From NCBI GenBank assembly GCA_945864225.1, contig CAMBAL010000021.1, forward strand, positions 1 to 37,687: a DNA stretch of 37,687 nucleotides. Direction: 5' to 3'. The DNA comes from an uncultured Blautia sp. (GTDB lineage Bacteria > Bacillota > Clostridia > Lachnospirales > Lachnospiraceae). Position numbers and translations under genes: made by a program. Of this stretch, positions 2,667 through 33,453 are shown piece after piece; within the stretch, counting starts at the first letter, position 1, and each line of letters starts with the position of its first letter. The notes beneath the pieces are model-generated. The model had not been told where the DNA came from, did not search any database, and saw only the letters and a program-made list of their open reading frames with translations.

Positions 2667-2763
2667 GAGCATCCTTTTGTAGAATAACAGATAAAAATAA
2701 GATTGTTTTGTACAACATAGAGCGTGGCTGGTCTATCATTAAGAACAAAAGGGAGGGACAATC

Positions 2764-3704
2764 ATGCTGCGGATGGAAATTGCTTTGTTTTTAGTGGTGA
2801 CACTTGTCGCCTATATGTATTTCTCGACAGAAAAGGAGAACTCGGCTTTGCACCGGAGCTTCTGTTGGTAAACCGAAAGGCCATCGACCGGAAAAAGAAA
2901 TCTGCCATCGGTGCGGCACTGGTGATCGAATTTGTGGTCTGTGTTTTGCAGGGGCTGCATCATACCTGGCTCATCAGCGGCATGGGCATTACCCTGATGA
3001 CGCTTTCTTTCTACCTGACTCTGGAAAATCCGGAGGCTCTCCGTGCGGAACTGGTAGAGCAGAAGATGTCCATGTTATATCTGAAAAGCCAGGTCAACCC
3101 TCATTTTCTCTACAACACCCTGGATACTATCCGAATTCAGGCGCAATTAAACGGAGATAAAAAAGTTGCTGACCTGCTCATGTGCCTGGTGGATTTTTTT
3201 CGCCTCAGCGTGAAAGTGGACCGGCCTCTGGTCACGTTGGATGACGAGATGGAATTGCTGGAAGCTTATATGGAACTGATGTGTTACCGCTACCCGGAGC
3301 TGAAATGCGAGTACGATATTCATCCCGATCTGGGCGGCACTCAGGTACCAAACTTTCTTTTGCAGCCCATCGTGGAAAACAGTCTACTCCACGGTTTGAA
3401 AAACCGCGGTTATCGTGGTGAGGTAGAGATTTCGGCGAAAAGAACGGCGGACAGCTGTATGGAAATTTGCGTTCGTGATACAGGCAGCGGCTTTGCGGAA
3501 GGCAAAAAAGCTGTCATTGATGAGATGCTGCAAAGCTATGATAAGCAGACGCCAAAACTCACCGGCAACAGCATCGGTATCTTAAATGTGCAAAAGCGCA
3601 TCAAGCTGCTTTGCGGTCGGGAATATGGACTTTCGTACACAGAAAACCCGGGTGGCGGAGTAACGGCTCACATCCTGCTGCCGCTGAAGGAGGAGATAAA
3701 ATGA
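2764..3704 (+). pseudogene. LytS/YesM-type sensor histidine kinase, membrane domain deleted and frameshifted
   Basis: The start with a strong ribosome site (GGGAGG before ATG 2764) encodes a hydrophobic segment (IALFLVVTLVAYMYF) and stops at 2869 after 35 codons. A different frame then supplies the end of a membrane region, the His-kinase domain with the phospho-acceptor histidine in NPHFLYNTLDTIR (codon near 3100), and the HATPase domain with QPIVENSLLHGL and DTGSGF. The simplest reading is a frameshifting deletion near 2855-2875 that removed most of the multi-pass sensor region. The catalytic part could only be made from an unmarked internal start and would not sense a membrane signal. TGA 3702 overlaps the next ATG, a leftover of the operon with the response regulator. 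Confidence 0.8.
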
Positions 3705-4117
3705 AGAAGCTGCGAGTACTTTTGGTGGATGACGAGATTATGATTCGGGAGGGATTTAAGCGCCTGTTTGACTGGGAGACACACGACTGTGAGGTGGTGG
3801 GCGAAGCCGCAGACGGAATGGAAGCACTTGCGAAAATCGACACACTCCGTCCGGACATCGCTATTATGGATATCAACATCCCCATTATGAACGGGTTAAA
3901 GGTTATCCAGATGCCGGTGATGAACGGATATGATGCCGCGAGAGCAATCCGTGCCATGAATCGGAATTACTGCAAAAAGATACCGATCGTTGCCATGACG
4001 GCAAATGCATTTGCAGAGGATGTGCTTGCTGCCAAAACAGTCGGTATGAACGAACATATTGCCAAACCATTGGATCTGAAGAATCTTGCACGGACACTGA
4101 ACAGGTGGCTGCGCTGA
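3701..4117 (+). CDS. Chimeric stand-alone receiver domain; DNA-binding domain missing
   Basis: 138 residues, ATG overlapping the kinase stop (ATGA). Residues 1-70 are a YesN-type receiver (Asp10/Asp11, phospho-acceptor Asp57, then PIMNG). Residues 71-138 begin with a second copy of that turn (MPVMNG) and continue as the C-terminal half of a hybrid-kinase receiver, with Thr100 (VAMTANAF) and Lys122 (AKPLD). The join is in frame and leaves an 11-residue duplication just after the phosphorylation loop. The AraC-type output domain expected next to a LytS/YesM kinase is absent. A deletion running from inside one receiver to the matching point in another explains this. The fold may be disturbed and no output is evident, so treat it as a probable pseudogene that still has an open frame. 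Confidence 0.72.
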   Translation: MKKLRVLLVDDEIMIREGFKRLFDWETHDCEVVGEAADGMEALAKIDTLRPDIAIMDINIPIMNGLKVIQMPVMNGYDAARAIRAMNRNYCKKIPIVAMTANAFAEDVLAAKTVGMNEHIAKPLDLKNLARTLNRWLR

Positions 4118-4177
4118 AAAATGTCGGCTCCTGTCCAGTACACTCGGGCTATCAGAAAAAATGATGGAGAAGGATAT

Positions 4178-7796: not shown

Positions 7797-7931
7797 CTTT
7801 TGTGCTGGCGAAAAAGCATTTTCCGTGAACCGGTTTTAAAATAAACTTTAGCTTTTTATTGTTTTTGGATTATCTTTTGCCATATTTTGGTTTATAATGT
7901 CAGAAGAACTGTAGAACGGGGGATGAAAGAA

Positions 7932-8798
7932 ATGTGGATATTATTTGCAGTTGGTTCGGCTTTTTTTGCAGGAGTTACTTCCATATTGGCAAAATGCGGA
8001 ATTGAAAGAACAGATTCCAATGTGGCTACGGCAGTCCGAACAATCGTCGTAATGCTTTTTTCCTGGCTGATGGTATTCGTGTCCGGGTCACAGAATGGAA
8101 TTATGGAAGTAGAGGGAAGAACTCTGCTGTTTCTGGTTTTGTCGGGACTGGCAACAGGGGCTTCCTGGCTGTGCTATTTTCGGGCACTTCAGATCGGCAA
8201 TATCAATAAGGTGGTACCGATTGATAAGTCCAGCACGGTACTGACGATTTTGCTGGCACTGATTTTTCTTCGTGAAGGCATCACGTGGACAAAAGGAATT
8301 GCAGTTGCAGTGATTGCATTGGGAATTCTTCTGATGATCCAGAAGAAGGAAAATGCTGAGGAGAATCCGGAACAAGGCAGGGGCTGGCTGTTGTATGCGG
8401 TTTTATCAGCTGTTTTTGCCAGTCTTACGGCAATTCTTGGAAAGATTGGAATTTCCGGCGTGGAGTCGAATCTCGGCACCGCGATCAGAACAACCGTTGT
8501 GCTTCTGATGGCATGGATGATGGTGTTCATAACCGGAAAACAAAAAGAAGTAAGCGAGATCCGCAAAAAGGAATTGGTCTTTATCTGTTGTTCGGGTCTG
8601 GCAACAGGGGCATCATGGCTTTGTTATTACCGGGCTTTGCAGGATGGACCCGCCAGTGTGGTAGTCCCGATCGATAAGCTGAGTATTCTGGTTACTGTAG
8701 CATTTTCTTATGTTGTGTTTCATGAAAAACTGGACAGGAAATCAGCGGTCGGCCTGCTGTTCCTTACCGCAGGTACTGTTGCAATGGCTTTTCTGTAA
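7932..8798 (+). CDS. EamA/DMT-family transporter with two very similar halves
   Basis: 288 residues, about ten predicted membrane helices, drug/metabolite transporter superfamily. The two EamA repeats are unusually alike: SGLATGASWLCY[FY]RALQ and VPIDK occur in both halves at matching positions. ATG 7932 is chosen because the GGGGG run lies about 8 nt upstream; the in-frame ATG at 7923 touches that run, and 7887 lies before the likely -10 (TATAAT 7893-7898). The substrate is unknown. It is monocistronic: the preceding ABC gene ends 135 nt upstream and an unrelated gene scar follows immediately. Confidence 0.88.
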   Translation: MWILFAVGSAFFAGVTSILAKCGIERTDSNVATAVRTIVVMLFSWLMVFVSGSQNGIMEVEGRTLLFLVLSGLATGASWLCYFRALQIGNINKVVPIDKSSTVLTILLALIFLREGITWTKGIAVAVIALGILLMIQKKENAEENPEQGRGWLLYAVLSAVFASLTAILGKIGISGVESNLGTAIRTTVVLLMAWMMVFITGKQKEVSEIRKKELVFICCSGLATGASWLCYYRALQDGPASVVVPIDKLSILVTVAFSYVVFHEKLDRKSAVGLLFLTAGTVAMAFL

Positions 8799-8800
8799 TT

Positions 8801-8896
8801 GGAAACACAATTGTAATGATCACGCATGATTTTTCTGTCACTCAAAATGCACAGCGCATTGTGCGTATTGTAGACGGCGATCTTTCTTATGAATAG
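8801..8896 (+). pseudogene. C-terminal scrap of a MacB/LolD-type ABC ATPase
   Basis: Immediately after the EamA stop the frame from 8801 reads GNTIVMITHDFSVTQNAQRI and then ends RIVDGDLSYE before TAG 8894. ITHD with the switch histidine followed by a DG-G/D-L tail is the end of an ABC ATPase of the lipoprotein/antimicrobial-peptide type. Everything upstream of the H-loop is missing and there is no start codon, so this is a gene remnant left by deletion up to the EamA stop. Confidence 0.75.
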
Positions 8897-8922
8897 ATCA
8901 AAAAATGAATAGATCAAAAAAA
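8891..8922 (+). repeat. Short tandem duplication, 16 bp twice
   Basis: GAATAGATCAAAAAA plus one base is repeated back to back (8891-8906, 8907-8922), starting at the last codons of the ABC ATPase scrap. It looks like slippage or a target duplication, but no insertion sequence is present. Confidence 0.7.
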
Positions 8923-9724: not shown

Positions 9725-9821
9725 AATATCTCAGACAATTTGCTTTATTCAGGGTATTCAAAAAGGATGATAAGGTGGGGATAAAACCGTACGGATCTGG
9801 CTCATTTGTGTAAGTTATGTT

Positions 9822-9978
9822 GCATCGGAAAAGCAAATTTTTACATTTCCGATGCCCGCTCTATTGATTTTGGGACATATTGGACATCGGAAAAGTGAAT
9901 TATTAGATTTCCGATGCCAGGTCCATTGATTTTGGGACATATTGGACATCGGGAAAATGTATTTTTATATTCCCGATG
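9822..9978 (+). repeat. Three tandem hairpins in a repeated 62-63 bp unit
   Basis: Perfect inverted repeats at 9822-9831/9846-9855, 9885-9893/9908-9916 and 9947-9955/9970-9978, all built on CATCGGAAA/TTTCCGATG. The spacer ATTGATTTTGGGACATATTG occurs identically between units 1-2 and 2-3. In unit 3 both arms changed together (CGGGAA/TTCCCG), so pairing is preserved. This fills most of the 357-nt gap between the DUF421 gene and pepF; 9725-9821 shows nothing else. Confidence 0.8.
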
Positions 9979-9987
9979 CTTTTTTTA
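9947..9987 (+). terminator. Rho-independent terminator (third hairpin)
   Basis: The 9-bp stem CATCGGGAA/TTCCCGATG is followed by C and a run of T (9980-9986), ending transcription from the DUF421 gene. Confidence 0.75.
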
Positions 9988-10029
9988 TTTTACAGGCAAG
10001 TGAGTCGCATTTTTATCAAATGATGACAG

Positions 10030-10058
10030 TTGTATGTAGAGGAATAATCTGTTATGAT
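10030..10058 (+). promoter_or_regulatory. Probable pepF promoter
   Basis: TTGTAT (10030-10035) and TATGAT (10053-10058) are 17 bp apart, 23 bp before the ribosome site AAGGAGG of the next gene. Confidence 0.55.
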
Positions 10059-10081
10059 AATCTACAGCAAGGAGGCAGAAA

Positions 10082-11893
10082 ATGGAAGAACAGAAAATTT
10101 TGACAAGACAGGAACAAAAAGCAGAGAATACATGGAACATGCAGGATCTGTACGCGAACGAAGAATTATTCAGCGAAGACGGAGAAAAGCTCGAAAAAAT
10201 GATGGAAGAGTTTGCTTCGTATAAAGGAACTCTTGCAGAAGGCGCAGAGCAGATGCGGAAGGTTCTGAAGCTTTATGAAGATATGAACCTGGTTTTTGAA
10301 CGGATGTATGTATATGCGAACCAGAAATATCATGAAGATACGGCAAATGCCCGTTATCAGCAGATGAGCGGGGAAATGCAGATTATTATGACCAGACTTG
10401 GACAGACGCAGGCATGGCTGGAACCGGAAATTCTGAATCTGCCGGAGAAAGTACTGAACGCTTATTTTACTCAAACCGACGGAAAAAATGGACTGGAACC
10501 GTATCGACGTTTTGTACAGCAGATTACCAGGAGAAAAGAGCATGTACTGGATGCAGGAACAGAAGCACTTCTTTCCAGAGTAAATGAACTGGGACAGGCA
10601 CCTTCGAATATTTATTCCATGTTCAATAATGCGGACATACAGTTTCCGGATGTGGAAGACAGTGAGGGCAAAAAATATCCTCTCACCCAGGGAACTTTTA
10701 TTCCATACCTGCAGAGCAGTGACAGAATACTCCGGAAAAATGCATTCCAGGCACTTTATTCGGTATATGGGCAATTTCGGAATACACTGGCTTCCCTTTA
10801 CTATGCCAACGCAAAACAGGCGGATTTTTTTGCAAAAGAACGCCATTATAAAAATGCAATGGAAGAGTCTCTGGATGGAAGCTGCATTCCGGTGTCAGTT
10901 TACCAGAATCTGATAGAAGCGGTTCATGAGGCACTGCCTCTGATGTATCGTTATGCAGAAATCCGAAAGAAATTTCTCGGGCTGTCGGAACTTCATATGT
11001 ATGATGTATATGTACCAATGGTAAAATCTCCGGAAAGGAAATATACGTTTGAAGAAGCGAAAGCAATCGTAAAACGCGGGCTTGCTCCTCTGGGAGAAGA
11101 TTATCTGGGGCTGCTGCAGGAAGGGTTTGACAATCGCTGGATCGATGTTTACGAAAATAAAGGAAAACGGACAGGAGCCTATTCCTGGGGCGCTTATGGA
11201 ACACATCCCTATGTTTTGCTGAATTTTCATGGATCTCTGAATGATGTGTTTACATTGGCTCACGAAATGGGTCATGCACTCCATTCCTGGTATTCCGATC
11301 ATACACAGCCTTATCTGTATGCCGGTTACCGGATTTTTGTGGCAGAAGTTGCATCCACCTGTAATGAAGCACTTCTGATTCATGATCTGATGGAAAGAAC
11401 AGAGGATGAAACAGAAAAACGGTATCTGATCAATTATTTTCTGGATCAGTTTAAAGGAACGATGTTCCGTCAGACCATGTTTGCCGAGTTTGAGATGCTG
11501 ACGCACAGCGTTGTAGAACAGGGCGGTATGCTTACTGCGGAACAGATCGATGAAATTTATCTGAATCTGAATAAGAAGTATTTTGGGCCGGATATGGTGT
11601 GTGATCCGGAAATTGCTCATGAGTGGGCACGTATTCCTCATTTTTATACACCGTTTTATGTGTATCAGTATGCGACCGGATTTGCTGCAGCGATTGCGAT
11701 CAGCAGTAAAATTCTGAACGGAGAGCCTGGAGTTGTTGAGAATTACAAAAAATTCCTGAGCGGAGGTTCTTCTATGGATCCCATTGATCTTTTGAAGCTC
11801 TGTGGCGTGGACATGTCTTCCCCGGAACCAGTAAAAGAGGCATTTGCTGTATTTGAGGAATACCTGGAAAGAATGGAAAGAAGAAGTAAATGA
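10082..11893 (+). CDS. pepF: Oligoendopeptidase F, M3 zinc metallopeptidase
   Basis: 603 residues, the normal length for the family. The zinc site is HEMGH (His394, Glu395, His398), with the third ligand Glu422 in EVASTCNEALL. The C-terminal part carries the substrate-binding tyrosines (HFYTPFYVYQYATG) seen in PepF. It degrades short peptides in the cytosol, with no signal peptide. It has its own promoter and AAGGAGG site. Its TGA overlaps the ATG of a MATE gene (ATGA), so the two were one operon. This gene is intact while the coupled transporter is cut. Confidence 0.93.
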   Translation: MEEQKILTRQEQKAENTWNMQDLYANEELFSEDGEKLEKMMEEFASYKGTLAEGAEQMRKVLKLYEDMNLVFERMYVYANQKYHEDTANARYQQMSGEMQIIMTRLGQTQAWLEPEILNLPEKVLNAYFTQTDGKNGLEPYRRFVQQITRRKEHVLDAGTEALLSRVNELGQAPSNIYSMFNNADIQFPDVEDSEGKKYPLTQGTFIPYLQSSDRILRKNAFQALYSVYGQFRNTLASLYYANAKQADFFAKERHYKNAMEESLDGSCIPVSVYQNLIEAVHEALPLMYRYAEIRKKFLGLSELHMYDVYVPMVKSPERKYTFEEAKAIVKRGLAPLGEDYLGLLQEGFDNRWIDVYENKGKRTGAYSWGAYGTHPYVLLNFHGSLNDVFTLAHEMGHALHSWYSDHTQPYLYAGYRIFVAEVASTCNEALLIHDLMERTEDETEKRYLINYFLDQFKGTMFRQTMFAEFEMLTHSVVEQGGMLTAEQIDEIYLNLNKKYFGPDMVCDPEIAHEWARIPHFYTPFYVYQYATGFAAAIAISSKILNGEPGVVENYKKFLSGGSSMDPIDLLKLCGVDMSSPEPVKEAFAVFEEYLERMERRSK

Positions 11894-12576
11894 CAAGAGA
11901 AAATCAATCAGAAAAAAAGATGATGAATAAGGATAACGCTGATAAAAAATCAGAGAAAGAGGGATTGGAGAATCAGAAACAGGAACTTTCGTTTACAGAA
12001 GGTTCTGTATTTGGTTCTATGATACGGTTTGCACTTCCGGTTTTGGGGGCGCTGATTCTGCAGGCTGCCTATGGTGCAGTGGATCTGCTTGTGGTCGGAC
12101 AGTTCGGGGATGCATCCAGTATTTCTGCAGTCGGTACGGGAAGTGCTTTTATGCAGATGGTTACGTTTATCATTACAAGTCTGGCAATGGGATCGACAGT
12201 CATTATTGGACAGCATATCGGAGAGAAAAAACCGAAAGAGGCCGGTGACACAGTAGGAACAACCATTATCCTGTTTGCCATGATCGGAATTGCGGCAACC
12301 ATCCTTCTGGAAATATTTGCCGGAAGCGTTCTGCATATTCTTCAGGTTCCGGAAGCTTCATTGGAAAAAGCAATTATTTATATGCGGATCTGCTCTGCCG
12401 GAATTCTGATCATTATTGCATATAATGTGATCAGTGGTGTGCTGCGAGGCGTCGGTAATGCAAATCTGCCATTTATCTTTGTGGGAATTGCATGTGTAGT
12501 AAACATTATCGGGGATCTGCTCTTTGTTGCAGTGTTCCGAATGGATGCGAGAAGTCAATATCTCGTGCCTGAATGA
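11890..12576 (+). pseudogene. MATE-family efflux transporter, C-terminal half missing
   Basis: 228 residues against about 450 for the family. A charged N-terminal extension (1-36) leads into MATE helices 1-6: RFALPVLGALILQAAYGAVD, VGQFGDASSISAVGTG, then GNANLPF. After VFRMDA (near 12546) the sequence turns unrelated (RSQYLVPE) and stops. The second six-helix bundle is absent, so no working transporter is expected. The break is abrupt and followed at once by intergenic sequence, as with a deletion that removed the 3' half. Confidence 0.8.
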
Positions 12577-12643
12577 ATTATCAAACACGCTCTAGATAAC
12601 GTGTCTATTGTTCTGACTGATAAATTGACACATTTCCCTATAA

Positions 12644-15053: not shown

Positions 15054-15192
15054 ATGCAAGATCTTTTTTTGAATATGATAAAGTTTGCAGTGTTTTTGAT
15101 AAAAAACAGGAAAATATGAAAAACAGGATGGCAACCGGGCATTGACTAAGGTATAATAAAAGCATGATTTTACAGGAAAGAAGGTAGAATTC

Positions 15193-15813
15193 ATGATAAA
15201 AGTAAATGCTCTGGGAGAGGCGTGTCCTATTCCTGTTGTAAAAACTATCCAGGCAATCAAAGAATTAAAATCGCCGGATTCCGTGGAAGTTCTTGTGGAC
15301 AACGAAATTGCTGTGCAGAATCTGACGAAGCTCGCGAAGCAGAAGAATTACGGCGTCCGTTCACAGAAACTGGAAGAAAAGAAATATCAGGTGATTCTGG
15401 AAGTGGGTGAAACAGACACTCCATCAGGAAAAGAAAAGGAACAGGAAGAAATCTCCTGTATTCCGGATACAAGAAGAAAAAATATGGTAGTAGTAATTTC
15501 TTCGGAATGTATGGGTACCGGTGATCAGGAACTGGGTGCAGTTCTGATGAAAGGATTTATATATGCACTGACCCAGCAGGAGATTCTTCCTTCCACGATT
15601 CTGTTCTATAACGGCGGTGCAAAGCTTACCTGTGAAGATGCACCGACGCTGGAAGATCTGAAATTTCTGGAAGCGCAGGGAGTGGAGATCCTGACCTGCG
15701 GTACCTGTCTGAATCATTATGGCCTGTTGGAAAAGCTTCAGGTAGGAAATGTCACAAATATGTATGTGATCACAGAGAAAATGACACAGGCTGACTGTAT
15801 TGTAAAGCCATAA
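15193..15813 (+). CDS. yedF: YedF, sulfurtransferase-like selenium metabolism protein
   Basis: 206 residues: a TusA-like domain (1-70) with CPIP at Cys11-Pro14, a charged linker, and a DsrE/DsrF-like domain (about 95-200) with the paired cysteines of TCGTCLNHY. This two-domain form is the YedF family, found mostly in selenium-using anaerobes and thought to handle reactive selenium or sulfur; its biochemical role is not proven. A GAAGG site precedes the ATG, and TATAAT at 15152-15157 is a likely -10 without a good -35. No selD, selA or selB is in the window, so the link to selenium is by family only. Confidence 0.88.
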   Translation: MIKVNALGEACPIPVVKTIQAIKELKSPDSVEVLVDNEIAVQNLTKLAKQKNYGVRSQKLEEKKYQVILEVGETDTPSGKEKEQEEISCIPDTRRKNMVVVISSECMGTGDQELGAVLMKGFIYALTQQEILPSTILFYNGGAKLTCEDAPTLEDLKFLEAQGVEILTCGTCLNHYGLLEKLQVGNVTNMYVITEKMTQADCIVKP

Positions 15814-19680: not shown

Positions 19681-20580
19681 ATGGAATTATTACATTACAT
19701 AAGCGGACCTCTGATCGGTGCGGTGATTGGATACTGTACCAATTATATTGCTGTAAAAATGCTGTTTCGGCCGCATAAGCCGATCCAAATTGGTCGTTTT
19801 ACCCTCCCGTTTACTCCGGGAATCATCCCGAAACGGAAGAATGATCTGGCATCTGCTGTTGGAAAAGCCGTTGGTAATGCACTTCTGACGGAAGAGGATC
19901 TGACAGAAATGCTTCTTTCTGAGGATGTGGAAAACTCGGTAACGGATATCCTGGTTTCACAGATTCAGGATTATCTGGGAAAGGAGCAGGCTCTCAGTGA
20001 AGTGCTTCCGGAACTTATGGGACAGGATGCCTATCATACAGGCAAAGAACAGCTGCAGCAGGTTCTGTGTGAAAAAATCATGAATGGTATCAAAGAGATG
20101 GAACCGGGCAGACTCATTGCAGAAGAAGGAAAAAAGGCGGTTCGTCTGAAACTGGAAGGAAGTATGTTTTCTATGTTTTTGACGGATAAATTACTGGATT
20201 CCCTTGCAGGTGAAATTGGAGAGTATGCAGAAAATTATATCATGGAGAATGGTCCTGCTTATGTGGAAACACAGATTGAAAAAGAAATTACCGGTATCGA
20301 GGGAAAAACGCTGGCAGATGTGAGAAGCTGGGTTCCTGCAGATAAAGAAACCATCTGCGGGAAAATCCGGGATGTTTACCGTGTATGCATCCGCAGATTT
20401 GCAGGCTCGATTGTGAAGCAGTTCCATATTGCTGATATTGTAGAAAATAAGATCAGAGAAATGGATGTTGCGGAACTTGAGAATTTGGTGATGTCTGTTA
20501 TGCAACATGAGCTGGGAATGATCGTAAATCTTGGGGCTCTGATCGGTCTGCTCCTGGGTATTTTCAATCTCTTTTTCTAA
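19681..20580 (+). CDS. DUF445 (YheB-like) membrane-associated protein
   Basis: 299 residues. The N-terminus has a membrane segment with the family mark GYCTNYIAVKMLFRP and FTPGIIPKRKNDLA. A long, mostly helical, charged middle follows, then a C-terminal membrane helix (NLGALIGLLLGIFNLFF). This layout is DUF445, related to B. subtilis YheB. Function is not known; relatives are linked to sporulation or envelope work. GGAG lies 8-9 nt before ATG 19681. It is monocistronic and convergent with the GGDEF/EAL gene. Confidence 0.85.
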   Translation: MELLHYISGPLIGAVIGYCTNYIAVKMLFRPHKPIQIGRFTLPFTPGIIPKRKNDLASAVGKAVGNALLTEEDLTEMLLSEDVENSVTDILVSQIQDYLGKEQALSEVLPELMGQDAYHTGKEQLQQVLCEKIMNGIKEMEPGRLIAEEGKKAVRLKLEGSMFSMFLTDKLLDSLAGEIGEYAENYIMENGPAYVETQIEKEITGIEGKTLADVRSWVPADKETICGKIRDVYRVCIRRFAGSIVKQFHIADIVENKIREMDVAELENLVMSVMQHELGMIVNLGALIGLLLGIFNLFF

Positions 20581-20635
20581 AAAACAGAATGATTGTGCTG
20601 AACGGGTATGGATGTACAGATAAGGATGTACAAAG

Positions 20636-20683
20636 TGTCCCGGGATTTTCATATATGAAGGTATGAAGTCCCGGGACATTTTT
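20636..20683. terminator. Bidirectional terminator between convergent genes
   Basis: TGTCCCGGGA (20636-20645) pairs with TCCCGGGACA (20669-20678), extended by TTTCATA/TATGAAG, and ends in TTTTT. It separates the DUF445 gene from the oppositely oriented GGDEF/EAL gene and could serve both. Confidence 0.8.
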
Positions 20684-20790
20684 GTGAACATTCACTGTCA
20701 CGATACAGTTATGGAATTTATTTTATGGATACACGGCAACTGTTTTTGGTTGCAGACATGTTATTTTTGATTTTGTTATCATAACGATTT

Positions 20791-23631
20791 CTACTGCCTG
20801 TGCGCATCGCCGTACACGAATTTTTCATATTCCTCGATCGGAAGAGGAGGACAGAACCAGATACCCTGCCCCGTTTCACAGCCGATCTTTCTGAGGATTT
20901 CAAGCTGTTCTTCTGTTTCCACTCCTTCACAGAGAACATGATAGCCAAGGCCTCTGACCATGGTCACGATTTCTTTGAGAAAATAAATTCCCCGTTTGGT
21001 GGAAGTGCATTTTTCAATAAACAGTCGGTCGATTTTAATTGTGTTGACCGGAATATCAATCACTGTATTTAATACGGAATACCCGGCTCCAAAATCGTCC
21101 ACAGAAGTCTGAATCTGTACAGACTGCAGATGCTGGAAGAGAGAACGTACACTGTCAAATTTTGCTACAGTGGCTGTTTCTGTAAGCTCTATTTCCGTCA
21201 GGGAAGGATCCACATGGTATTTATTCAGAATATCGAGATAATTCTGCACAGTCATCGGATTGGAGGCGTGAAGGATGGAGGCATTGATGGAAATCGGTAT
21301 CTGTTTTCTGCCAAGTGTGTCGTTTTTGGCAAGGAATTCCACGACTTTTTCAAATACATAATAATCCAGTTCTGTGATCCGGCCATTCTGTTCAAAGGTT
21401 GGAATGAAAGCGCCGGGAGAGAGAACGGTTCCATCCGGCTTATGCCATCGAACAAGTGCTTCTGCTCCTGTAATGGAAAGATCCTCCATGGAAAATTTGG
21501 GCTGCAGATAAATCTGGAACTGTCCCTGAGCCATAGCTTCTGTCATATCATTTTTGATTTCATTTTCCAGATGGCGTTTGCGGGAAAGTGCTTCATCATA
21601 AAGGATTACAGATTGTCCCTTCCCCTGTTTGGTCTGCTGACGGGCATAGTTAGCACAGTCCAGTGCAGAGGAAGCACTGGTACAGCCGGGTTTTACTATA
21701 TAAATACCGGTACGGATCCGCAGCGGAACATTTGGATATATTTTTTTCTGCTGCTCAATAAAAAGATGATTGATCTGTTCTACATGTTCCACTGCATGGC
21801 CCTGATCGATATACGGCATAAAGAGCGCAAACTGATCCGCAACGATTCGCGTAAAATATACATTATTGCCAGGCTTCAGTGTACTGATGATATAACTGCT
21901 GAAATCTTTCAGGAGCTGATCTCCCATGCGATAGCCGCATTTCTGATTAAAGTACTTAAAATCTTCCAGATCTGTATAAACCATGGCATATGTCTGATGC
22001 TCGTTGCCAACGATAATCCGCTCTGTTTCATCACGAAATCTGGCAAAAGAAAGAAGACCTGTGAGATGGTCATATTCCGGAACAGAAATAATCCCTTTGT
22101 GAGAGGCATTCAGTGCATGAGTTTTGGCCAGATGAGCAGAAATCAGTTTCGTAAGCTCTCCAAGCTGGCTCAGCTGATCTTTGGACCAGAAGCGCTTTGT
22201 TTTACATACTACATAGGAGATTGCACCGACATACATTCCTTCACAATACATGGCGGAATAGACGACTGTTTTGGCATTTCCCTGCATAAGAAGAGAAGCT
22301 GCAGATGCAGAGTACATTTCCATATTGTCATATTGAAGAACAGCAGTACCGTTTTCGTCATAGCTGTGGAACAGTTTCAGAAAATCATCTTTGGTAAAAC
22401 TTCCCGGATTTTCCAGTACTTTTGGGATTCCGGGTGCAGACCACTGCCGGTAGCTGCTGCATACAGAATTTTTGATGTCTGTTTCAATAATAGAAATGCG
22501 GTCCAGTCCGAAACGGATTCCAATGATCTCAAGAAGCATTTTTATGGCAGAATCAAAGCTGTTTTTCTTTTCAAATATTTCAAATGCGCAGGAGATGATG
22601 TCGTTTCGGAAATATCGTGCATCAATATCTGGATGAATATTTTCAAAATCCGGGGAGGAATATTCAAAACGTTTCAGACTGTCGCAGAACATATAACGGT
22701 TGCGGCCGCTTCTTTTTGCATTGTATAAAGCCCAGTCAGCATTTTCAAAAAGCTGTTCATAAGTATAACCTGACATATTTTCCGGCAGAAAGCAGATTCC
22801 GACACTGCAGGTGGGTGAATAATCACATTCTGTAAAAGCCATATTGCGGACGGAAGCAAGCAGTTTATCTCCCTTGTTCAGAAGTTCCGTATGGCGGATG
22901 TCTTTCAGGAAAATGACAAATTCATCTCCGCCTGCACGGATCAGAATATTATCATTTCCGAAAACAGAGAGAAGAAGCCGGGAAAATTCTGAAAGAACTT
23001 TGTCCCCAAAGAGATGACCATAGTTGTCATTTACGTTTTTGAAATAATCGATGTCAATCAGCATCAATGCACAGGAGGAATAGGGATTTTTTTTGTTCAG
23101 ATATTCATTGATCAGCTGTGTTCCTGCTGTGTGATTATATAATGTGGTCAAAGGGTCACGCATGGCCTGTGCCTTGAGAAGCTCCACACGTCTGCGTTCC
23201 ATAGTAACATCACGGATAATACCAATAATGACTGAGTCCGGGTCATCCAGAGACCCTGTCGGGGCTGAATCCAGAATATTATGAAAGACGCGCCCGTTCT
23301 TGTTGATGGTGCGTATTTCAATAGGGGAATTATGATTCTCATGATGAAATTCCAGCAGTTTCCCAAAGTCATCAGGATGAATATGGGATGCCATATCCAG
23401 GTTTTTAAAGTAATCAGGAACCCGGATGACTGGCTGGAAATATTCATTGTATTTCAGAAGAACATCTTCTGCTGGATAATATTCAAAAATAGTAATGTTG
23501 GCGCGGCTCAGGACAGTGGCCAGTTTTTGAAGCCGTATCGGGTCAGATACGAAAGCTTCCAGTGATGAAATGACGTCTTGTTTCTGGTCAGCAATTGTGC
23601 TGTTTTGTATCTGTTCAGAGGCATATTTCAT
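20791..23631 (-). CDS. PAS-GGDEF-GAF-like-GGDEF-EAL cyclic di-GMP protein
   Basis: 946 residues on the minus strand. Order: PAS-like fold (about 50-150), GGDEF with intact AGGDEF (about 155-315), a GAF-like sensory region (about 340-500), a second GGDEF-like domain whose signature is VADQF and so is inactive (about 515-670), and an EAL domain (about 680-940) with EALVRW, SINAS, ELTET, DDFGAGYS, KIDRLF and EGVET, all needed for phosphodiesterase activity. It may both make and degrade c-di-GMP, with the degenerate GGDEF as a GTP sensor. The start at 23631 (MKYASEQ) has GAGG 8 nt upstream; the longer frame to 23700 would start at a TTG with no site. No membrane helix, so it is cytosolic. Confidence 0.92.
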   Translation of the reverse strand: MKYASEQIQNSTIADQKQDVISSLEAFVSDPIRLQKLATVLSRANITIFEYYPAEDVLLKYNEYFQPVIRVPDYFKNLDMASHIHPDDFGKLLEFHHENHNSPIEIRTINKNGRVFHNILDSAPTGSLDDPDSVIIGIIRDVTMERRRVELLKAQAMRDPLTTLYNHTAGTQLINEYLNKKNPYSSCALMLIDIDYFKNVNDNYGHLFGDKVLSEFSRLLLSVFGNDNILIRAGGDEFVIFLKDIRHTELLNKGDKLLASVRNMAFTECDYSPTCSVGICFLPENMSGYTYEQLFENADWALYNAKRSGRNRYMFCDSLKRFEYSSPDFENIHPDIDARYFRNDIISCAFEIFEKKNSFDSAIKMLLEIIGIRFGLDRISIIETDIKNSVCSSYRQWSAPGIPKVLENPGSFTKDDFLKLFHSYDENGTAVLQYDNMEMYSASAASLLMQGNAKTVVYSAMYCEGMYVGAISYVVCKTKRFWSKDQLSQLGELTKLISAHLAKTHALNASHKGIISVPEYDHLTGLLSFARFRDETERIIVGNEHQTYAMVYTDLEDFKYFNQKCGYRMGDQLLKDFSSYIISTLKPGNNVYFTRIVADQFALFMPYIDQGHAVEHVEQINHLFIEQQKKIYPNVPLRIRTGIYIVKPGCTSASSALDCANYARQQTKQGKGQSVILYDEALSRKRHLENEIKNDMTEAMAQGQFQIYLQPKFSMEDLSITGAEALVRWHKPDGTVLSPGAFIPTFEQNGRITELDYYVFEKVVEFLAKNDTLGRKQIPISINASILHASNPMTVQNYLDILNKYHVDPSLTEIELTETATVAKFDSVRSLFQHLQSVQIQTSVDDFGAGYSVLNTVIDIPVNTIKIDRLFIEKCTSTKRGIYFLKEIVTMVRGLGYHVLCEGVETEEQLEILRKIGCETGQGIWFCPPLPIEEYEKFVYGDAHRQ

Positions 23632-23867
23632 TCCTGCCACCTCGCTTTCTTTTGAATTCCGGATTATCGACCGGTTGTGTTCTGAAAATAAACAGAACAA
23701 ATCTGTGTATATACAGAATTTTTGCAGCAGATAATATTTTGTTAAAAAAAATACATGGATATGTTAATAATATATCATATTTACAAAGGTGAATCAATGA
23801 AATAGTGGGAAAAGTAATAATTGTATCATTTTGGTACTGTTCACTGGTAATATCCCGCGAGGTGTTC

Positions 23868-26229: not shown

Positions 26230-27087
26230 ATGAGTAAAGAAAAGACAGGACTGGTTCTGGAAGGCGGTGCCATGCGCGGGATTTATACGGCAGGCGTGCT
26301 GGACGAATTTATGGAAGCTGGAATTACGTTTGACGGTGTGATCGGAGTATCCGCAGGGGCACTTCATGGCTGTTCATTTGTGTCGGAACAGAAGGGAAGG
26401 AGTCTGCGGTATTATATGAAATACCGCAGTGACAGGCATTTTATGAGCTTTTGGAATCTTTTGCGTACAGGAGATGTAGTGGATAAGAAATTTTGTTACC
26501 ATGATATTCCGGAACGTCTGGATCCCTATGATTATGAAGCGTTTCTCAAGTCCAGAATCAGATTCTATGCAGTCTGCACCAATCTGGAAACAGGAAAAGC
26601 AGAATATCTTCCGGTCAAAAATATGAGAAGTCAGGTAGATATTATGCGCGCTTCTGCTTCTATGCCTTATGTATCCAGGATTGTTGAGTACCGCGGAATG
26701 AAACTGCTGGATGGCGGATGTGCGGACAGTATTCCGGTAATGGCGTTCCGGCGTATGGGATATAAGAAAAATGTGGTAGTACTGACCAGACATGACGGTT
26801 ATGTGAAGAAACCGGAGAATCCGAAACTGATCCGGGCATTTTATCATAAATATCCGAATTTTGTCAGAACACTGACCAGACGGCATCTGGTCTATAACCG
26901 GACCATTGAGAATATACACAGACTGGAAAAAGAGGGAAGTGTTTTTGTGATCCGTCCCAGTGTGGAGCTTACCATTGGAAGGATGGAAAAAGACCCTGAG
27001 AAAATTCGTGAAGTGTATGAAATCGGTCGGAAGGATGCAAAAAGCAGGATGGAAGCATTAAAGAAGTGGATGGAGAAAAATGAATAA
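26230..27087 (+). CDS. Patatin-like phospholipase
   Basis: 285 residues. The oxyanion motif LEGGAMRGIYTAGVLD, nucleophile elbow GVSAG (Ser41) and catalytic DGG (Asp161) form the Ser-Asp dyad of bacterial patatins. It is probably a cytosolic or membrane-surface lipid acyl hydrolase; no signal peptide is seen. It lies 99 nt after larC and may be cotranscribed. The gap holds three loose copies of GGAAAGAAGTT (26184-26220), one of which runs into the ribosome-binding region. Confidence 0.9.
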   Translation: MSKEKTGLVLEGGAMRGIYTAGVLDEFMEAGITFDGVIGVSAGALHGCSFVSEQKGRSLRYYMKYRSDRHFMSFWNLLRTGDVVDKKFCYHDIPERLDPYDYEAFLKSRIRFYAVCTNLETGKAEYLPVKNMRSQVDIMRASASMPYVSRIVEYRGMKLLDGGCADSIPVMAFRRMGYKKNVVVLTRHDGYVKKPENPKLIRAFYHKYPNFVRTLTRRHLVYNRTIENIHRLEKEGSVFVIRPSVELTIGRMEKDPEKIREVYEIGRKDAKSRMEALKKWMEKNE

Positions 27088-27114
27088 ACAGAATCTTCCC
27101 GGGAGGACAGGACC

Positions 27115-27891
27115 ATGCTCAGAGTATTTGTAGTGGATGATGAATGCCTTGTAATAGAGGGAATCCGGCTATTGATGGAAGAAGCACTGCGCAAAGCGGA
27201 GGAAATTTATTTTAAGAGTACTCTGGAAGAAATGCACAGGAAACATGTTTCCGGCAGCGTGGATAAAATGATCGAAAAACTTCTGAAATCAGATTATGAC
27301 AGTGCTTTGGCTATTTTTGAAGAACTGAAAACGGAATTTGAATCAGAGAACCCGACCATTGAAGAGTATCGGTGGAATGTGTTCATGGTCTGCACATCGG
27401 TGGTAAGCTGTTATTATGATAATACAAAAGTAAATCTGTCAGAAAAGCACTTTCCTTCTTACAAAAATTTTAAAATTCTGAATACCTGTCAGGAAGTGAA
27501 CCAATACGTTGATGAAATTATTTTGAATATCATAAATAAGATGAAGAGAGAACAGGACGGAATTACGCATGATTCTATCAGAAATCTGATCGGATATATC
27601 GAAGAACATTATAATGAGGATATCAGCCTGAACCAGCTTGCGGAAATGCTGAATATGAGCCCGGTTTACCTGAGCGCACTGTTCAAAGAGGAAACAGGGA
27701 TCAGTTATGTGAAATATCTGACTGAAATCCGAATGAAGAAAGCGAAGGAACTGCTTTCCCAGGGGCATCTTGTGTATGAAGTGTGTGAGATGGTGGGATA
27801 TCCGAATTACCGGTACTTCTGCGATCTGTTTAAAAAAAGGACAGGAATGACACCAAATGAATATAAGGGTACGGTGCGTAAAAACAGATGA
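27115..27891 (+). pseudogene. YesN-type response regulator with most of the receiver deleted in frame
   Basis: 258 residues. Residues 1-23 are the first strand and helix of a receiver (VVDDECLVIEGIRLLMEE, Asp8 and Asp9). Residue 24 on is the linker that normally follows the receiver (ALRKAEEIYFKST). The phospho-acceptor aspartate, the Thr/Ser and the Lys of a receiver are all missing, about 90-100 residues. The C-terminal AraC domain (about 155-255) is intact, with two helix-turn-helix motifs (SLNQLAEMLNMSPVYLSALF; VYEVCEMVGYPNYRYFCDLF). If expressed it would bind DNA without phosphorylation control. It lies next to the broken kinase 27907 and sugar ABC genes, its expected partners. Confidence 0.75.
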
Positions 27892-27906
27892 TGGAAGAGG
27901 TGCTGC

Positions 27907-28506
27907 ATGAAAAAAATAAAACTGCGGTGGCAGATTATTATCGCCATCATCATTGTCTCCTTTCTTTCTGTTACGGTTTCTGTTTTTTCTGTATACCGGA
28001 TTTCCATACAGACGATCCGGGAACAATATATCAAACAGTCGGAAGAAAAACTGTCCGCTCTGAATGTTCTTGCGGATAAGGAACTGAGTAATCTGGTCAA
28101 TATCATCCGAAATTGTATGCTGGATGATGATTTGATCAGCGTGATCAGTGAGGAGCCTCTTGTAGAAGGCTCTTCTTATTATGATTCGAAAAGCAAAACC
28201 AGTATATCGGAACAGGTAGCGGATATGGTCAGCCAGCTGAGCAAAGTAGAGGGAGTCTTTCTGTTTGATGATTACAATCGGTATATTATGTATCTGGGAA
28301 ACGGGGAGAAAACAGCTCCGTATCTGACCTATTATACAACAGGACCGGATAAGGATGCGGACTGGTATCAGGCAGTGGAGCAGAGCAAAGGAAAAGAGAT
28401 TTTCTGGAATGGAGATGTATTGAATCCTGAAAACCGGCGATGCTTTTCTGTGGTAAAAATATTAAATGATACGTCAAAATATAAGCCCATGGTATTCTGG
28501 TCGTGA
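27907..28506 (+). pseudogene. Sensor histidine kinase (YesM-type), only membrane and sensor part left
   Basis: 199 residues. An N-terminal membrane helix (IIIAIIIVSFLSVTVSVFSVY) is followed by the extracytoplasmic dCache-like sensor region. The gene ends after KPMVFWS at TGA 28504; the second helix, HAMP, His-kinase and ATPase domains are missing. AGAGG precedes ATG 27907, which is 15 nt after the regulator gene. The same frame continues beyond the TGA directly into the tail of a solute-binding protein, so one large deletion joins the two genes. Confidence 0.8.
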
Positions 28507-28767
28507 CGGTTTCCACAAGCTTATAACAGTGAGGGATTTATCCAGGCAGCACAGATGATCCAGGATATGAATGCAAAAGGTTACTTTGGTGAAGGTGCTA
28601 CCACCGAAATGAACAAAGTTACCGGTACAGGAAACTGGTTTGAAGCACTTATGAATTCTGAACTGTCAACAATCGCACAGGATAATGTTCAGTCTCTGCT
28701 GAACGGAGATATGAGTGCTCAGGAATACTGTGATATGATGGCAGAAACTTATGAGGCTACCAAATAA
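28507..28767 (+). pseudogene. C-terminal fragment of a sugar ABC solute-binding protein
   Basis: 86 codons starting RFPQAYNSEGFIQAAQMIQD and ending MSAQEYCDMMAETYEATK with TAA 28765. This is the tail of a family-1 extracellular solute-binding protein, where GDMSAQEY marks the last helix. The signal peptide, lipobox and ligand-binding lobes are absent. It is in frame with the kinase scrap upstream, separated only by TGA. Confidence 0.78.
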
Positions 28768-28818
28768 ATACTTGCTTGAACGATGAGACATAAAGAGTCA
28801 GGATAAAATAATATGCAC

Positions 28819-28853
28819 AAAAGGCAGGCAGGTTCTCTGTCTGCCTTTTCTTA
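28819..28853 (+). terminator. Attenuator-type terminator between binding protein and permease
   Basis: AAAAGGCAG (28819-28827) pairs with CTGCCTTTT (28841-28849), followed by CTT. Such a hairpin after the binding-protein gene is usual in sugar ABC operons, where it lowers permease expression. Confidence 0.65.
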
Positions 28854-28869
28854 AAGAGGAGTGACTGGA

Positions 28870-29300
28870 TTGAACAAAGTATTAAGTAATAAAAAAGCAA
28901 TTGCTCTGTATATGGTGCCGGGACTTCTGTTATATACCTGTTAAAAGCGTTAACTGTAAATATCAAATATATCATCATTGTAATGGCTGGACAGATTATT
29001 CTGGGTCTTCTGCTTGCCCTGATGTTCCGTTTCTGGCTGAAACATTTCAAATCTCTGGTAAGAACGATTGTATTCTTCCCGGTTGTGCTTCCGGTTGTAG
29101 CAGTGGCACAGCTTTTTACAAAGATTTATGAAATACAGCCGCATTACGGTCTGCTGAACAGTATCCTGGCAGCTGTGGGGCTTGATAATCTGGTACATCC
29201 CTGGCTCGGACAGGCCAGCACTGCACTGGGGTCTCTGTGTGCAATGGATATCTGGACTTCCATCGGATTTTATGCAATCATCCTTTTTAGCTTGCCATGA
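28870..29300 (+). pseudogene. MalF-type sugar ABC permease, internal deletion and cut 3' end
   Basis: A TTG start at 28870 with GAGGAG 8 nt upstream reads NKVLSNKKAIALYMVPGLLL and then stops at TAA 28942 after YTC. The frame from about 28944 resumes as LKALTVNIKYIIIVMAGQII and runs to FPVVLPVVAVAQLFTKIYE and WTSIGFYAIILF, stopping at 29298. Helix 1's end, the following loop and helix 2 are lost at the first join. The EAA loop and last helices are lost at the second, which leads into the next permease in another frame. Confidence 0.8.
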
Positions 29301-29491
29301 CTTTTGTGAGCAGTAAAAATCTCAAGACCGTACAGACGGGACTTCTGTATTTTACAGATGAATTTGGAACGAAAAACTGGGGAGCAATTTTTGCGTCGGT
29401 ATCCATCTGTGTCATTCCGATGCTGATTATGTACCTGTTTCTGAATAAACGTGTCATTGAAGGTATGACGGCAGGATCAACGAAAGGATAA
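29291..29491 (+). pseudogene. C-terminal fragment of a MalG-type sugar ABC permease
   Basis: The frame from 29291 reads LAMTFVSSKNLKTVQTGLLY, then FTDEFGTKNWGAIFASVSIC, a hydrophobic helix, and ends RVIEGMTAGSTKG. That C-terminus (VIxGMTAGAxKG) is diagnostic of MalG-type permeases. All earlier helices and the EAA loop are missing. It is fused by deletion to the MalF-type gene, in a different frame. Confidence 0.8.
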
Positions 29492-29497
29492 GAGACT

Positions 29498-30676
29498 ATG
29501 GAATATGAAAAGAAAGAACAGATGAAACATTATGAAGAACTTCTGAGAACATTTTTTACGGATCATACGAAAGATGTTATGAAACAGCCGCGGAGCTTTA
29601 TCCGTTATCCGTTTATCGATCCGGGCTCGATCTATGATGGAAATGTATGGAACTTTTTTGACCATCAACTGGAAGACGGGTATATTCCCATGATGATCGA
29701 AGTGGCTGACTGGCCGGAACCGTATCTGAATATGAGACATAAAGAAGGTGTGCTGATGAATATGCACAAGCCGTTTCTCTGCACACAGATCTGTCTGATC
29801 AGTGATTACGTGAAGGATTATACCTGGATGGAGGAGAATCTGGAGGGGATTCGGAAATATTTTGCCTGCTACGATAGGAATTATTATTATGAAAACTGTG
29901 GTCTGTATGTGTGGCGGGATGATATTATGATCGGAATGGACAATGATCCGGCTACTTTTGGAAGGCCTCCGTTTTCTACAGCCAATATTTTCCTGAACAG
30001 TTTTATGTGCGTGGAACTGGCAGCTGCTGCGAAAATCTTCCGGACTTTTGGACAGAAGGAAGAGGCAGCCGAACTGCTGAAAAAACGGGAAGCGCTGATT
30101 CAGTCCATTCAGTCGGAATGCTGGGACAAAAGAGATCAGTTTTTCTATTCTGTGGATGTGGATATCAAAACCAGAAAGTACGACTGGTTTCACCAGGGAC
30201 TTGGTGTTTTCTGGAAAACCCTTCCCATCAAGGTGCGTGTATGGTCCGGTTTTATTCCCATGTATGCGGGAATTGCGACAGAAGAACAGGCAGCAGCAAT
30301 GGTAAAGCATATCTTTGATGATACAACATTTGGTTCCGATTATGGTCTGACGACTCTGGCAAAAGACGAAAAAATGTTTGATCTTTCGGTGACAAACAAT
30401 CCGTCCAACTGGCTCGGACCAATCTGGCTGGTGGCAAATTATGTGGTATTCCGCGGCCTTATGAATTATGGCTACCGGGATGAAGCAGAAATCATCTGCG
30501 AGAGAACTCTGACTCTTCTGGGAAGAGATCTGGAAAAAAGCGGATGTCTGTATGAATACTATGATCCGTTTACCGGAGAACCGATTATGAATGGAGGATT
30601 TATCAACTGGAATGTTCTTGCAGTGAACATGGCAGATGAACTGAGGGGAAAGAAGCCAATGAGCTTTTCTGACTGA
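29498..30676 (+). CDS. Trehalase/MGH1-like glycoside hydrolase with probable small internal deletion
   Basis: 392 residues, (alpha/alpha)6-barrel glycosidase of the GH63/GH37-related MGH1 type, cytosolic. Clear motifs: GLYVWRDDIMIGMDNDPATF with the acidic catalytic pair region, NNPSNWLGPIWLVANY, and EYYDPFTGEP near the C-terminus. At residues 46-53 YDGNVW runs straight into NFFDHQLEDGY; relatives carry a conserved WDWDS/T segment and about 35-40 more residues here. An in-frame deletion is likely and would remove part of the substrate pocket, so activity is doubtful. It begins 7 nt after the MalG scrap and was the enzyme of this sugar operon. Confidence 0.78.
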   Translation: MEYEKKEQMKHYEELLRTFFTDHTKDVMKQPRSFIRYPFIDPGSIYDGNVWNFFDHQLEDGYIPMMIEVADWPEPYLNMRHKEGVLMNMHKPFLCTQICLISDYVKDYTWMEENLEGIRKYFACYDRNYYYENCGLYVWRDDIMIGMDNDPATFGRPPFSTANIFLNSFMCVELAAAAKIFRTFGQKEEAAELLKKREALIQSIQSECWDKRDQFFYSVDVDIKTRKYDWFHQGLGVFWKTLPIKVRVWSGFIPMYAGIATEEQAAAMVKHIFDDTTFGSDYGLTTLAKDEKMFDLSVTNNPSNWLGPIWLVANYVVFRGLMNYGYRDEAEIICERTLTLLGRDLEKSGCLYEYYDPFTGEPIMNGGFINWNVLAVNMADELRGKKPMSFSD

Positions 30677-30828: not shown

Positions 30829-33453
30829 ATGGCAAAATGGGTTTACATGTTTACAGAAGGTAACGCTAATATGAGAAACCTTCTGGGTGGTAAAGGTGCC
30901 AACCTTGCTGAAATGACAAGCCTTGGTCTTCCGGTACCGCAGGGCTTCACAATCACAACAGAAGCTTGTACGCAGTACTATGAAGACGGAAGACAGATCA
31001 ATGAGGAAATCATGGGTCAGATCATGGAAGCAATCACCAAGATGGAAGGAGTTACCGGCAAAAAATTCGGTGACAAAGAAAATCCTCTGCTTGTTTCCGT
31101 ACGTTCTGGTGCAAGAGCTTCTATGCCTGGTATGATGGATACCATCCTGAACCTTGGCTTAAATGAAGAAGTAGTTCATACATTGGCTGAAAAATCCGGA
31201 AACCCACGTTGGGCTTGGGACTGCTACAGAAGATTCATTCAGATGTATTCTGACGTAGTAATGGAAGTTGGTAAAAAATACTTTGAAGAGCTGATCGACA
31301 AGATGAAAGCTGAAAAAGGTGTAAAACAGGACGTTGAGCTTACTGCTGAAGACCTTGAGACACTTGCAAATCAGTTCAAAGCTGAATACAAAGAAAAGAT
31401 CGGTTCTGATTTCCCGACTGATCCGAAGGAACAGTTAATGGGCGCAATCAAAGCTGTATTCCGTTCCTGGGATAACCCGCGTGCAAATGTATATCGTCGT
31501 GACAACGATATCCCGTACTCCTGGGGTACTGCTGTAAACGTACAGATGATGGCATTTGGTAACATGGGTGATGACTGTGGTACAGGTGTTGCTTTCACTC
31601 GTGACCCTGCTACAGGTGAGAATGGTCTGTTTGGTGAATTCCTGACAAATGCACAGGGTGAAGACGTTGTTGCCGGTGTTCGTACACCTATGCACATTTC
31701 CGAAATGGAAGAGAAATTCCCGGAAGCATTCGTTCAGTTCAAAGAAGTATGCAGCATTCTTGAAAAACACTACAGAGATATGCAGGATATGGAGTTTACT
31801 GTTGAACATGGTAAACTGTATATGCTTCAGACACGTAATGGTAAGAGAACCGCTCAGGCTGCTCTGAAGATCGCTTGTGACCTTGTTGATGAAGGCATGA
31901 GAACAGAAGAAGAAGCAGTTGCAATGATCGATCCTCGTAACCTGGATACACTTCTTCATCCTCAGTTCGACGCTAAGGCTCTGAAAGAAGCTGCTCCGAT
32001 CGCAAAAGCACTTGGCGCTTCTCCGGGAGCTGCGTGCGGTAAGATTGTATTTACAGCAGACGATGCTGTTGAATGGGCTGCAAGAGGCGAAAAAGTTGTT
32101 CTTGTTCGTCTTGAAACTTCTCCGGAAGACATTACCGGTATGAAATCTGCTCAGGGTATCCTGACTGTTCGTGGTGGTATGACTTCTCACGCAGCCGTTG
32201 TTGCACGTGGTATGGGTACCTGCTGTGTATCCGGTTGCGGCGACATCGCTATGGATGAAGAAAATAAGAAATTCACTCTTGCTGGAAAAGAATATCATGA
32301 AGGAGACTGCATCTCCCTTGATGGTTCCACAGGTAACATTTATGACGGAATCATCCCGACTGTAGATGCTACAATCGCTGGTGAGTTCGGCAGAATCATG
32401 GCATGGGCTGACAAATACAGAACTCTGAAGGTTCGTACAAATGCAGATACTCCGGCTGACGCTAAAAAAGCTCGTGAGCTTGGTGCAGAAGGTATCGGTC
32501 TCTGCCGTACAGAGCATATGTTCTTCGAAGGCAACAGAATCGATGCATTCCGTGAAATGATCTGTGCTGAAACTGTTGAAGAAAGAGAAGCAGCTCTTGA
32601 GAAGATCCTTCCGGAACAGCAGGGAGACTTCGAGAAACTGTATGAAGCTCTTGAAGGAAATCCTGTAACAATCCGTTTCCTGGATCCGCCTCTTCATGAG
32701 TTCGTTCCTACTACAGAAGAAGATATCAAGAAACTTGCAGATGCTCAGGGCAAGACTGTTGAGCAGATCAAGACAATCATTGATTCTCTCCATGAGTTCA
32801 ACCCGATGATGGGTCATCGTGGATGCCGTCTGGCAGTTACTTATCCGGAAATCGCTAAGATGCAGACAAAAGCAGTTATCCGTGCAGCTATCAATGTGAA
32901 GAAAGCACACGCTGACTGGAATGTTTGCCCGGAAATCATGATTCCGTTAGTAGGCGATGTAAAAGAGTTGAAATATGTGAAGAAAGTTGTTGTTGAGACA
33001 GCTGACGCTGAAATCGCAGCAGCAGGCGCTGACCTGAAATATGAAGTTGGTACCATGATCGAGATCCCGAGAGCTGCTCTTACAGCTGACGATATCGCTA
33101 AAGAAGCTGACTTCTTCTGCTTCGGTACAAACGACTTAACACAGATGACATACGGATTCTCCCGTGATGACGCTGGTAAATTCCTTAATGCATACTATGA
33201 CGCTAAGATCTTCGAGAACGATCCATTCGCTAAACTCGACCAGACAGGCGTTGGTAAATTAATGGAAATGGCTATTAAGTTAGGAAAACCGGTTAACCCG
33301 AACCTGCACATCGGTATCTGCGGTGAGCACGGCGGCGACCCGACATCCGTAGAATTCTGCCATAAGATTGGTCTGGACTACGTTTCCTGCTCACCATTCC
33401 GTGTTCCGATCGCTCGTCTTGCAGCAGCACAGGCAGCAATCGCTGAAAAATAA
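30829..33453 (+). CDS. ppdK: Pyruvate, phosphate dikinase
   Basis: 874 residues, the same length as the C. symbiosum enzyme. It interconverts pyruvate, ATP and phosphate with PEP, AMP and PPi in the cytosol, serving PPi-linked glycolysis or gluconeogenesis. An N-terminal ATP-grasp domain (GGKGANLAEM, SVRSGARASMPGMMDT) leads to the swivelling domain with phosphohistidine His454 in GGMTSHAAVVARG and the C-terminal PEP-binding barrel with catalytic Cys831 in GICGEHGGDP. Codon choice (frequent GCT, GTT, GGT, CGT) differs from neighbours and suggests high expression. It is monocistronic, with its own promoter and terminator, and undamaged beside the decayed sugar locus. Confidence 0.97.
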   Translation: MAKWVYMFTEGNANMRNLLGGKGANLAEMTSLGLPVPQGFTITTEACTQYYEDGRQINEEIMGQIMEAITKMEGVTGKKFGDKENPLLVSVRSGARASMPGMMDTILNLGLNEEVVHTLAEKSGNPRWAWDCYRRFIQMYSDVVMEVGKKYFEELIDKMKAEKGVKQDVELTAEDLETLANQFKAEYKEKIGSDFPTDPKEQLMGAIKAVFRSWDNPRANVYRRDNDIPYSWGTAVNVQMMAFGNMGDDCGTGVAFTRDPATGENGLFGEFLTNAQGEDVVAGVRTPMHISEMEEKFPEAFVQFKEVCSILEKHYRDMQDMEFTVEHGKLYMLQTRNGKRTAQAALKIACDLVDEGMRTEEEAVAMIDPRNLDTLLHPQFDAKALKEAAPIAKALGASPGAACGKIVFTADDAVEWAARGEKVVLVRLETSPEDITGMKSAQGILTVRGGMTSHAAVVARGMGTCCVSGCGDIAMDEENKKFTLAGKEYHEGDCISLDGSTGNIYDGIIPTVDATIAGEFGRIMAWADKYRTLKVRTNADTPADAKKARELGAEGIGLCRTEHMFFEGNRIDAFREMICAETVEEREAALEKILPEQQGDFEKLYEALEGNPVTIRFLDPPLHEFVPTTEEDIKKLADAQGKTVEQIKTIIDSLHEFNPMMGHRGCRLAVTYPEIAKMQTKAVIRAAINVKKAHADWNVCPEIMIPLVGDVKELKYVKKVVVETADAEIAAAGADLKYEVGTMIEIPRAALTADDIAKEADFFCFGTNDLTQMTYGFSRDDAGKFLNAYYDAKIFENDPFAKLDQTGVGKLMEMAIKLGKPVNPNLHIGICGEHGGDPTSVEFCHKIGLDYVSCSPFRVPIARLAAAQAAIAEK

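Follow-up and report, generated by a model that had tools for sequence, protein, structure and literature searches.

The window analysed here is the whole of a 37,687-bp contig (C21) from the draft genome of a Blautia-like member of the Lachnospiraceae (2.67 Mb in 115 contigs, 84 % complete). Two intact genes on its forward strand, one encoding a patatin-like protein (26230..27087; orthologues in the related genomes G013, G024, G028 and G067) and the other pyruvate phosphate dikinase (ppdK, 30829..33453), flank the remnants of an operon that occupy positions 27115–30676 in the order AraC-type regulator, sensor kinase, solute-binding protein, MalF, MalG and MGH1/GH63-like glycosidase. The other genes of the window that have an orthologue are collinear and full length, the exception being a MATE gene at 11890–12576, and no RNA families or tRNAs were reported within the window. 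Coding density (0.868 in the window and 0.879 in the sample from the same genome, compared with 0.877–0.887 in three relatives) gave no signal of genome-wide decay.

All six remnants are on the forward strand. The AraC-type (YesN-like) response regulator (27115..27888) is an open frame of 258 amino acids that retains the AraC helix–turn–helix; its first 20–33 or so residues are joined, at 27175–27183, to sequence lying about 91 residues downstream in the 367-residue reference. The sensor kinase (27907..28510) is reduced to approximately the first 200 of 578 residues, carries a 1-bp frameshift near 28487 and has lost its kinase and ATPase domains. The solute-binding protein (28511..28764) survives as two pieces, corresponding to about residues 232–263 and 384–436 of 436, which meet in frame at about 28604–28606, its N-terminal half having been lost in the kinase join. 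The MalF-type permease (28870..29287) comprises residues 1–24 and approximately 65–180 of 298, with an out-of-frame join between them at 28940|28941, and is fused to the last 65 or so of the 282 residues of the MalG-type permease (29288..29491). The MGH1-like/GH63-like glycosidase (29498..30676) is affected by an in-frame loss of 35–36 residues at about 29636–29650 and is otherwise open, with 392 amino acids.

The loss per gene across these six adjacent genes ranges from less than one-tenth to about four-fifths of the length, leaving about 140 residues of MalF, 65 of MalG and 85 of the binding protein. The essential protein parts that are missing include the kinase and ATPase domains, much of the transport domain of both permeases and the N-terminal half of the binding protein, and the mark of a working carbohydrate ABC importer operon, a complete permease pair with a binding protein, is absent. 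Since no complete permease or binding protein remains, the transporter is presumably dead.

The losses were measured against three intact operons of the same gene order (L031/L067 in G024, L066 and L098), using a DNA alignment of the window with L031 in which long gaps carry a constant cost. A first-pass annotation of this DNA had described a normal gene order in which each gene lacks a part and in which the kinase is fused to the binding protein and MalF to MalG, and had called for alignment to an intact operon and a listing of the deletion end points. The three references bear out this description, and the alignment with L031 resolves six joins: 27183|27184 (273 bp lost), 28510|28511 (1,946 bp), 28605|28606 (360 bp), 28940|28941 (121 bp), 29287|29288 (1,000 bp) and 29648|29649 (105 bp). 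Together, these deletions account for 3,805 bp of the 7,438-bp L031 operon, or about half. The first five are also given by L066 and L098, with sizes of 273/279, 2072/2079, 360/360, 121/121 and 1018/1041 bp, respectively; the regulator join is placed 8 bp further left (after 27175) by both, and the other four joins shift by at most 2 bases. L098 alone shows an extra 92-bp gap after 28773, in the spacer between the binding-protein and MalF genes, which was left out of the six. For the glycosidase, five references of a closer type give a deletion of 108 bp (L032, L040, L042 and L050) or 183 bp (L046), and locate the join at 29648–29650 (three references) or 29636 (L042 and L046). Over the references, leaving aside the 183 bp of L046, the ranges are about 273–279, 1,946–2,079, 360, 121, 1,000–1,041 and 105–108 bp.

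Every gene of the operon is affected and the binding-protein gene was struck twice, while the kinase/binding-protein and MalF/MalG deletions span gene boundaries, which accounts for the two fusions. Compared with L031, 1-bp indels occur at or near two joins (about 28487, the kinase frameshift, and about 29292, at the MalG join), other small alignment gaps fall in the poorly matching regulator linker, in spacers and in the glycosidase, and a 39-base stretch in a spacer is the one sizeable addition. Three of the four purely intragenic deletions (273, 360 and 105 bp) preserve the reading frame, for which a binomial reckoning gives a chance of about 1 in 9, and selection may therefore be holding some of the frames open. 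The first-pass annotation had also considered that relatives might carry the same compact gene forms. The MalF and MalG pieces span 545 bp here, compared with 1,400–1,700 bp in 71 and 1,259–1,391 bp in three of the 74 loci at which MalF and MalG were both matched (a count that includes overlapping copies); none of the 74 is so closely spaced, and compact gene forms as a normal variant were rejected.

The extent of point change was assessed by counting window changes at residues that are invariant in the three or four aligned relatives, with the same count made for each intact lineage. In the binding protein, 1 of 36 such residues is changed (0/35–5/40 in intact lineages), in MalF 4 of 84 (3/83–9/89), in MalG none of 61 (0/61–1/62) and in the glycosidase 4 of 211 (3/210–33/240). 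The regulator, with 21 changes at 102 residues, exceeds all three relatives (3/84, 8/89 and 18/99), and the kinase, with 12 of 71, exceeds two of three (5/64, 10/69 and 26/85). There are no stop codons in the aligned remnant pieces, the kinase piece having been cut before its frameshift. Because the binding-protein, permease and glycosidase remnants fall within the range of the intact lineages, the deletions in the transporter and the glycosidase, at any rate, look recent relative to species divergence, and the lack of excess change in these remnants fits a recent death. The proposal that many discrete deletions accumulated without matching point decay is thus upheld by the six aligned joins and the invariant-residue counts, with some adjustment of its parts: point decay is almost, but not entirely, absent, given the 1-bp kinase frameshift and the 1-bp difference at the MalG join; the transporter and glycosidase segments are conserved like intact copies, whereas the regulator and kinase are less so; and the 'short time' suggested for the deletions holds in a relative sense for the binding protein, permeases and glycosidase, the regulator and kinase having changed faster.

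The remnants differ in their affinities. From 28870 to 30676 the locus may be of mosaic origin: the MalF and MalG pieces are 78–97 % identical to the same-order operons and 66–85 % identical to the other listed loci, and the glycosidase is 76–82 % identical to L032 and L046, which belong to another operon type, and 61–64 % identical to the three same-order operons. The C-terminal piece of the binding protein also shows 78–97 % identity to L031, L066 and L098.

The fate of the same place in related genomes provides a context for these losses. Over positions 4134–30952, the window is matched collinearly by the sister genome G013 at about 75–93 % DNA identity. G013 lacks 27083–30640, such that the last dozen codons of the glycosidase gene remain beside the patatin gene as a scar; a glycosidase of this operon was therefore present here in the common ancestor, and G013 shows the end state of operon loss. 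In G024 and G067, the interval between the patatin gene and ppdK contains two other genes, which we take to be those of an AgcS-like symporter and an RluD-like protein, and no operon, while in G028 the same two genes share the interval with an intact operon of a different type, which includes GH43 and rhamnosidase genes. The operon thus forms a series: it is intact in some relatives, half removed in the window and reduced to a dozen codons in G013.

Further stretches are absent at this place in G013, namely 9733–12642, 19750–20808 and the pair 15075–15434 and 15462–15812, in which the intervening 27-bp island may be due to chance. A wider comparison of this genome with G013, covering 50,887 aligned bases and with the window part extended to 19353, revealed seven losses in G013 and one in the genome studied here, the site of the latter being that of a MarR–ABC remnant in G013; the sampled stretches of G072 yielded one aligned block. 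In the remnant (L246:17681–18393), a MarR domain leads directly into the terminal part of an ABC ATPase, apparently the result of a large deletion in a MarR–ABC operon; nothing comparable was found at that site in the genome studied here.

Comparable decay is encountered elsewhere. The EAL/GGDEF gene of G028 (L119, about 7900–8920) has lost 1053, 566 and approximately 500–600 bp relative to the window copy, which is intact at 20791–23700 and encodes 969 residues. Besides the operon, the window contains two deletion-truncated loci, a two-component pair (2724–4117) and the MATE-family gene. In the former, comparison with G072 shows the kinase (2724–3704) to be 357 bp short. The regulator that follows has a receiver that looks chimeric, its first half being YesN-like and its second resembling that of a hybrid kinase. 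The MATE-family gene is cut to about its first half, and it and its neighbour are absent at this place in G013. A short intergenic motif at 23835–23866, preceding a hairpin-like stretch, has many matches, mostly at 85–100 %, in several genomes of the genus; a search of the sampled stretches allowing up to four substitutions did not find it.

DNA searches of the 84 % complete draft with the G024 and G028 operons as queries, in which 40 of 59 and 40 of 62 initial candidates were scored, recovered the remnants at this locus but not the lost pieces; outside the locus, only matches of about 35–130 bp were obtained, and the possibility that the missing pieces had moved to another contig was rejected. 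As a control for general truncation, 126 orthologue-like comparisons (48 with G028, 49 with G024 and 29 with G011) were made for the window and 20 other stretches of the same genome, keeping best hits of at least 60 % identity, so that mainly conserved genes are represented and accessory genes are under-represented. Truncation in this genome was indicated in three of them, two concerning the MalF of this operon and one the MATE gene at 11890; the regulator, kinase and binding-protein losses of the operon were not flagged. In the reverse direction, in which the genome's own proteins were set against those of relatives, the three cases were the EAL/GGDEF gene of G028 (two) and an N-terminal loss in G011 (one).

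Inspection by eye of the relatives' flanking sequences revealed no clear repeats between the two flanks at five of the six joins, while the glycosidase deletion is flanked by an imperfect direct repeat, and no long sequence is shared by the two sides of the joins. These ancestral flanks are known only via relatives at about 65–80 % DNA identity, a divergence that is too great for assessing short microhomology. Repeats within the locus do not account for the joins either. A Ku gene (PF02735) was not found in the 84 % complete genome at E ≤ 0.001; the control match came from one of 14 genomes, that of Bacillus subtilis.

Taken together, the locus is very probably a real carbohydrate ABC-transporter operon (two-component regulator, binding protein, two permeases and glycosidase) that was recently inactivated and is being removed by successive illegitimate deletions of 0.1–2 kb, and the reality of the deletions is supported by three independent intact operons giving the same joins. 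The operon would have become dispensable, with relaxed selection preceding its loss, and the deletions would have followed one after another, arising via end joining or slippage without long homology. Given the near-complete loss of this operon in the sister genome, the locus looks like ordinary gene loss caught part-way, and the specific deletion process entertained in the first-pass annotation is not needed. Another reading, in which deletions dominate the mutation process throughout this Blautia-like clade, with frequent deletions of 0.1–2 kb that depend on little or no homology and occur without Ku, carving up dead operons before point mutations gather, is unlikely; the dead operons that it would produce would differ from Salmonella pseudogenes, which are mostly single-hit.

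The collapsed assembly offered as the other explanation, in which parts of an intact operon would have been omitted or bridged over during assembly, could draw on the draft status of the genome, on the odd density of the joins (six within 3.6 kb, with point decay nearly absent) and on the 1-bp differences at or near two joins. It is nevertheless quite improbable, since the relatives have no long repeat shared by the join sides that could fold a short-read graph, the missing pieces were not found on other contigs of the draft, the conserved genes sampled are intact and the window's other genes with orthologues, save the MATE gene, are collinear and full length; an assembler fault sparing conserved genes yet striking accessory ones would be odd. 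The scar in the sister genome and the comparable pattern in G028 also argue against it. Little point mutation across six joins might equally be expected had a single complex rearrangement made all of them at once, but the order and orientation of the pieces are kept and a 39-base spacer stretch is the one sizeable addition relative to L031, an outcome rarely given by one shattering event, which makes this reading very unlikely. It is extremely improbable that a compact operon is still at work, with shortened proteins kept by selection, for example a receiver-less AraC activator driving the glycosidase: the open frames of the regulator and the glycosidase, together with three in-frame intragenic deletions, would favour this, but the lack of a complete permease or binding protein, the spacing unmatched among two-permease loci and the loss of the operon in the sister genome all speak against it.

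The simplest account is a reductive process, known in kind and here still ongoing, in which illegitimate deletions remove genes that are dispensable. As in this locus, dispensable bacterial genes go mainly by deletions, and young pseudogenes vanish quickly (PMC2916853, PMC5447742). In the Salmonella survey, a single inactivating mutation is present in 346 of 378 pseudogenes, and losses of more than 20 % of the length are confined to a small fraction (PMC2916853); here, unlike in Salmonella, six adjacent genes are each shortened with almost no point mutation. Because the Salmonella pseudogenes reported there are mostly one-hit and few are shortened by more than 20 %, the density of large deletions relative to point mutations is notable by comparison. 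In insect endosymbionts, losses are mostly of small blocks in otherwise syntenic regions (PMC1544356), as between G013 and the window; unlike a minimal endosymbiont genome, this is a 2.7-Mb Blautia-like draft with a coding density like that of its relatives. The locus has the gene order of the intact carbohydrate ABC importer operons that include a YesMN-type two-component system (L031, L066 and L098), and about half of the DNA is deleted. Among the literature matches listed, none dealt with deletional gene loss in either Blautia or Lachnospiraceae.

The locus offers a well-resolved snapshot of operon loss under way, and serves as a warning that short open frames in draft genomes may be deletion remnants rather than genes. 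Series of this kind, in which the same operon is found intact, partly removed and almost gone, make it possible to examine what deletions and point mutations each contribute to gene loss in gut-type bacteria.
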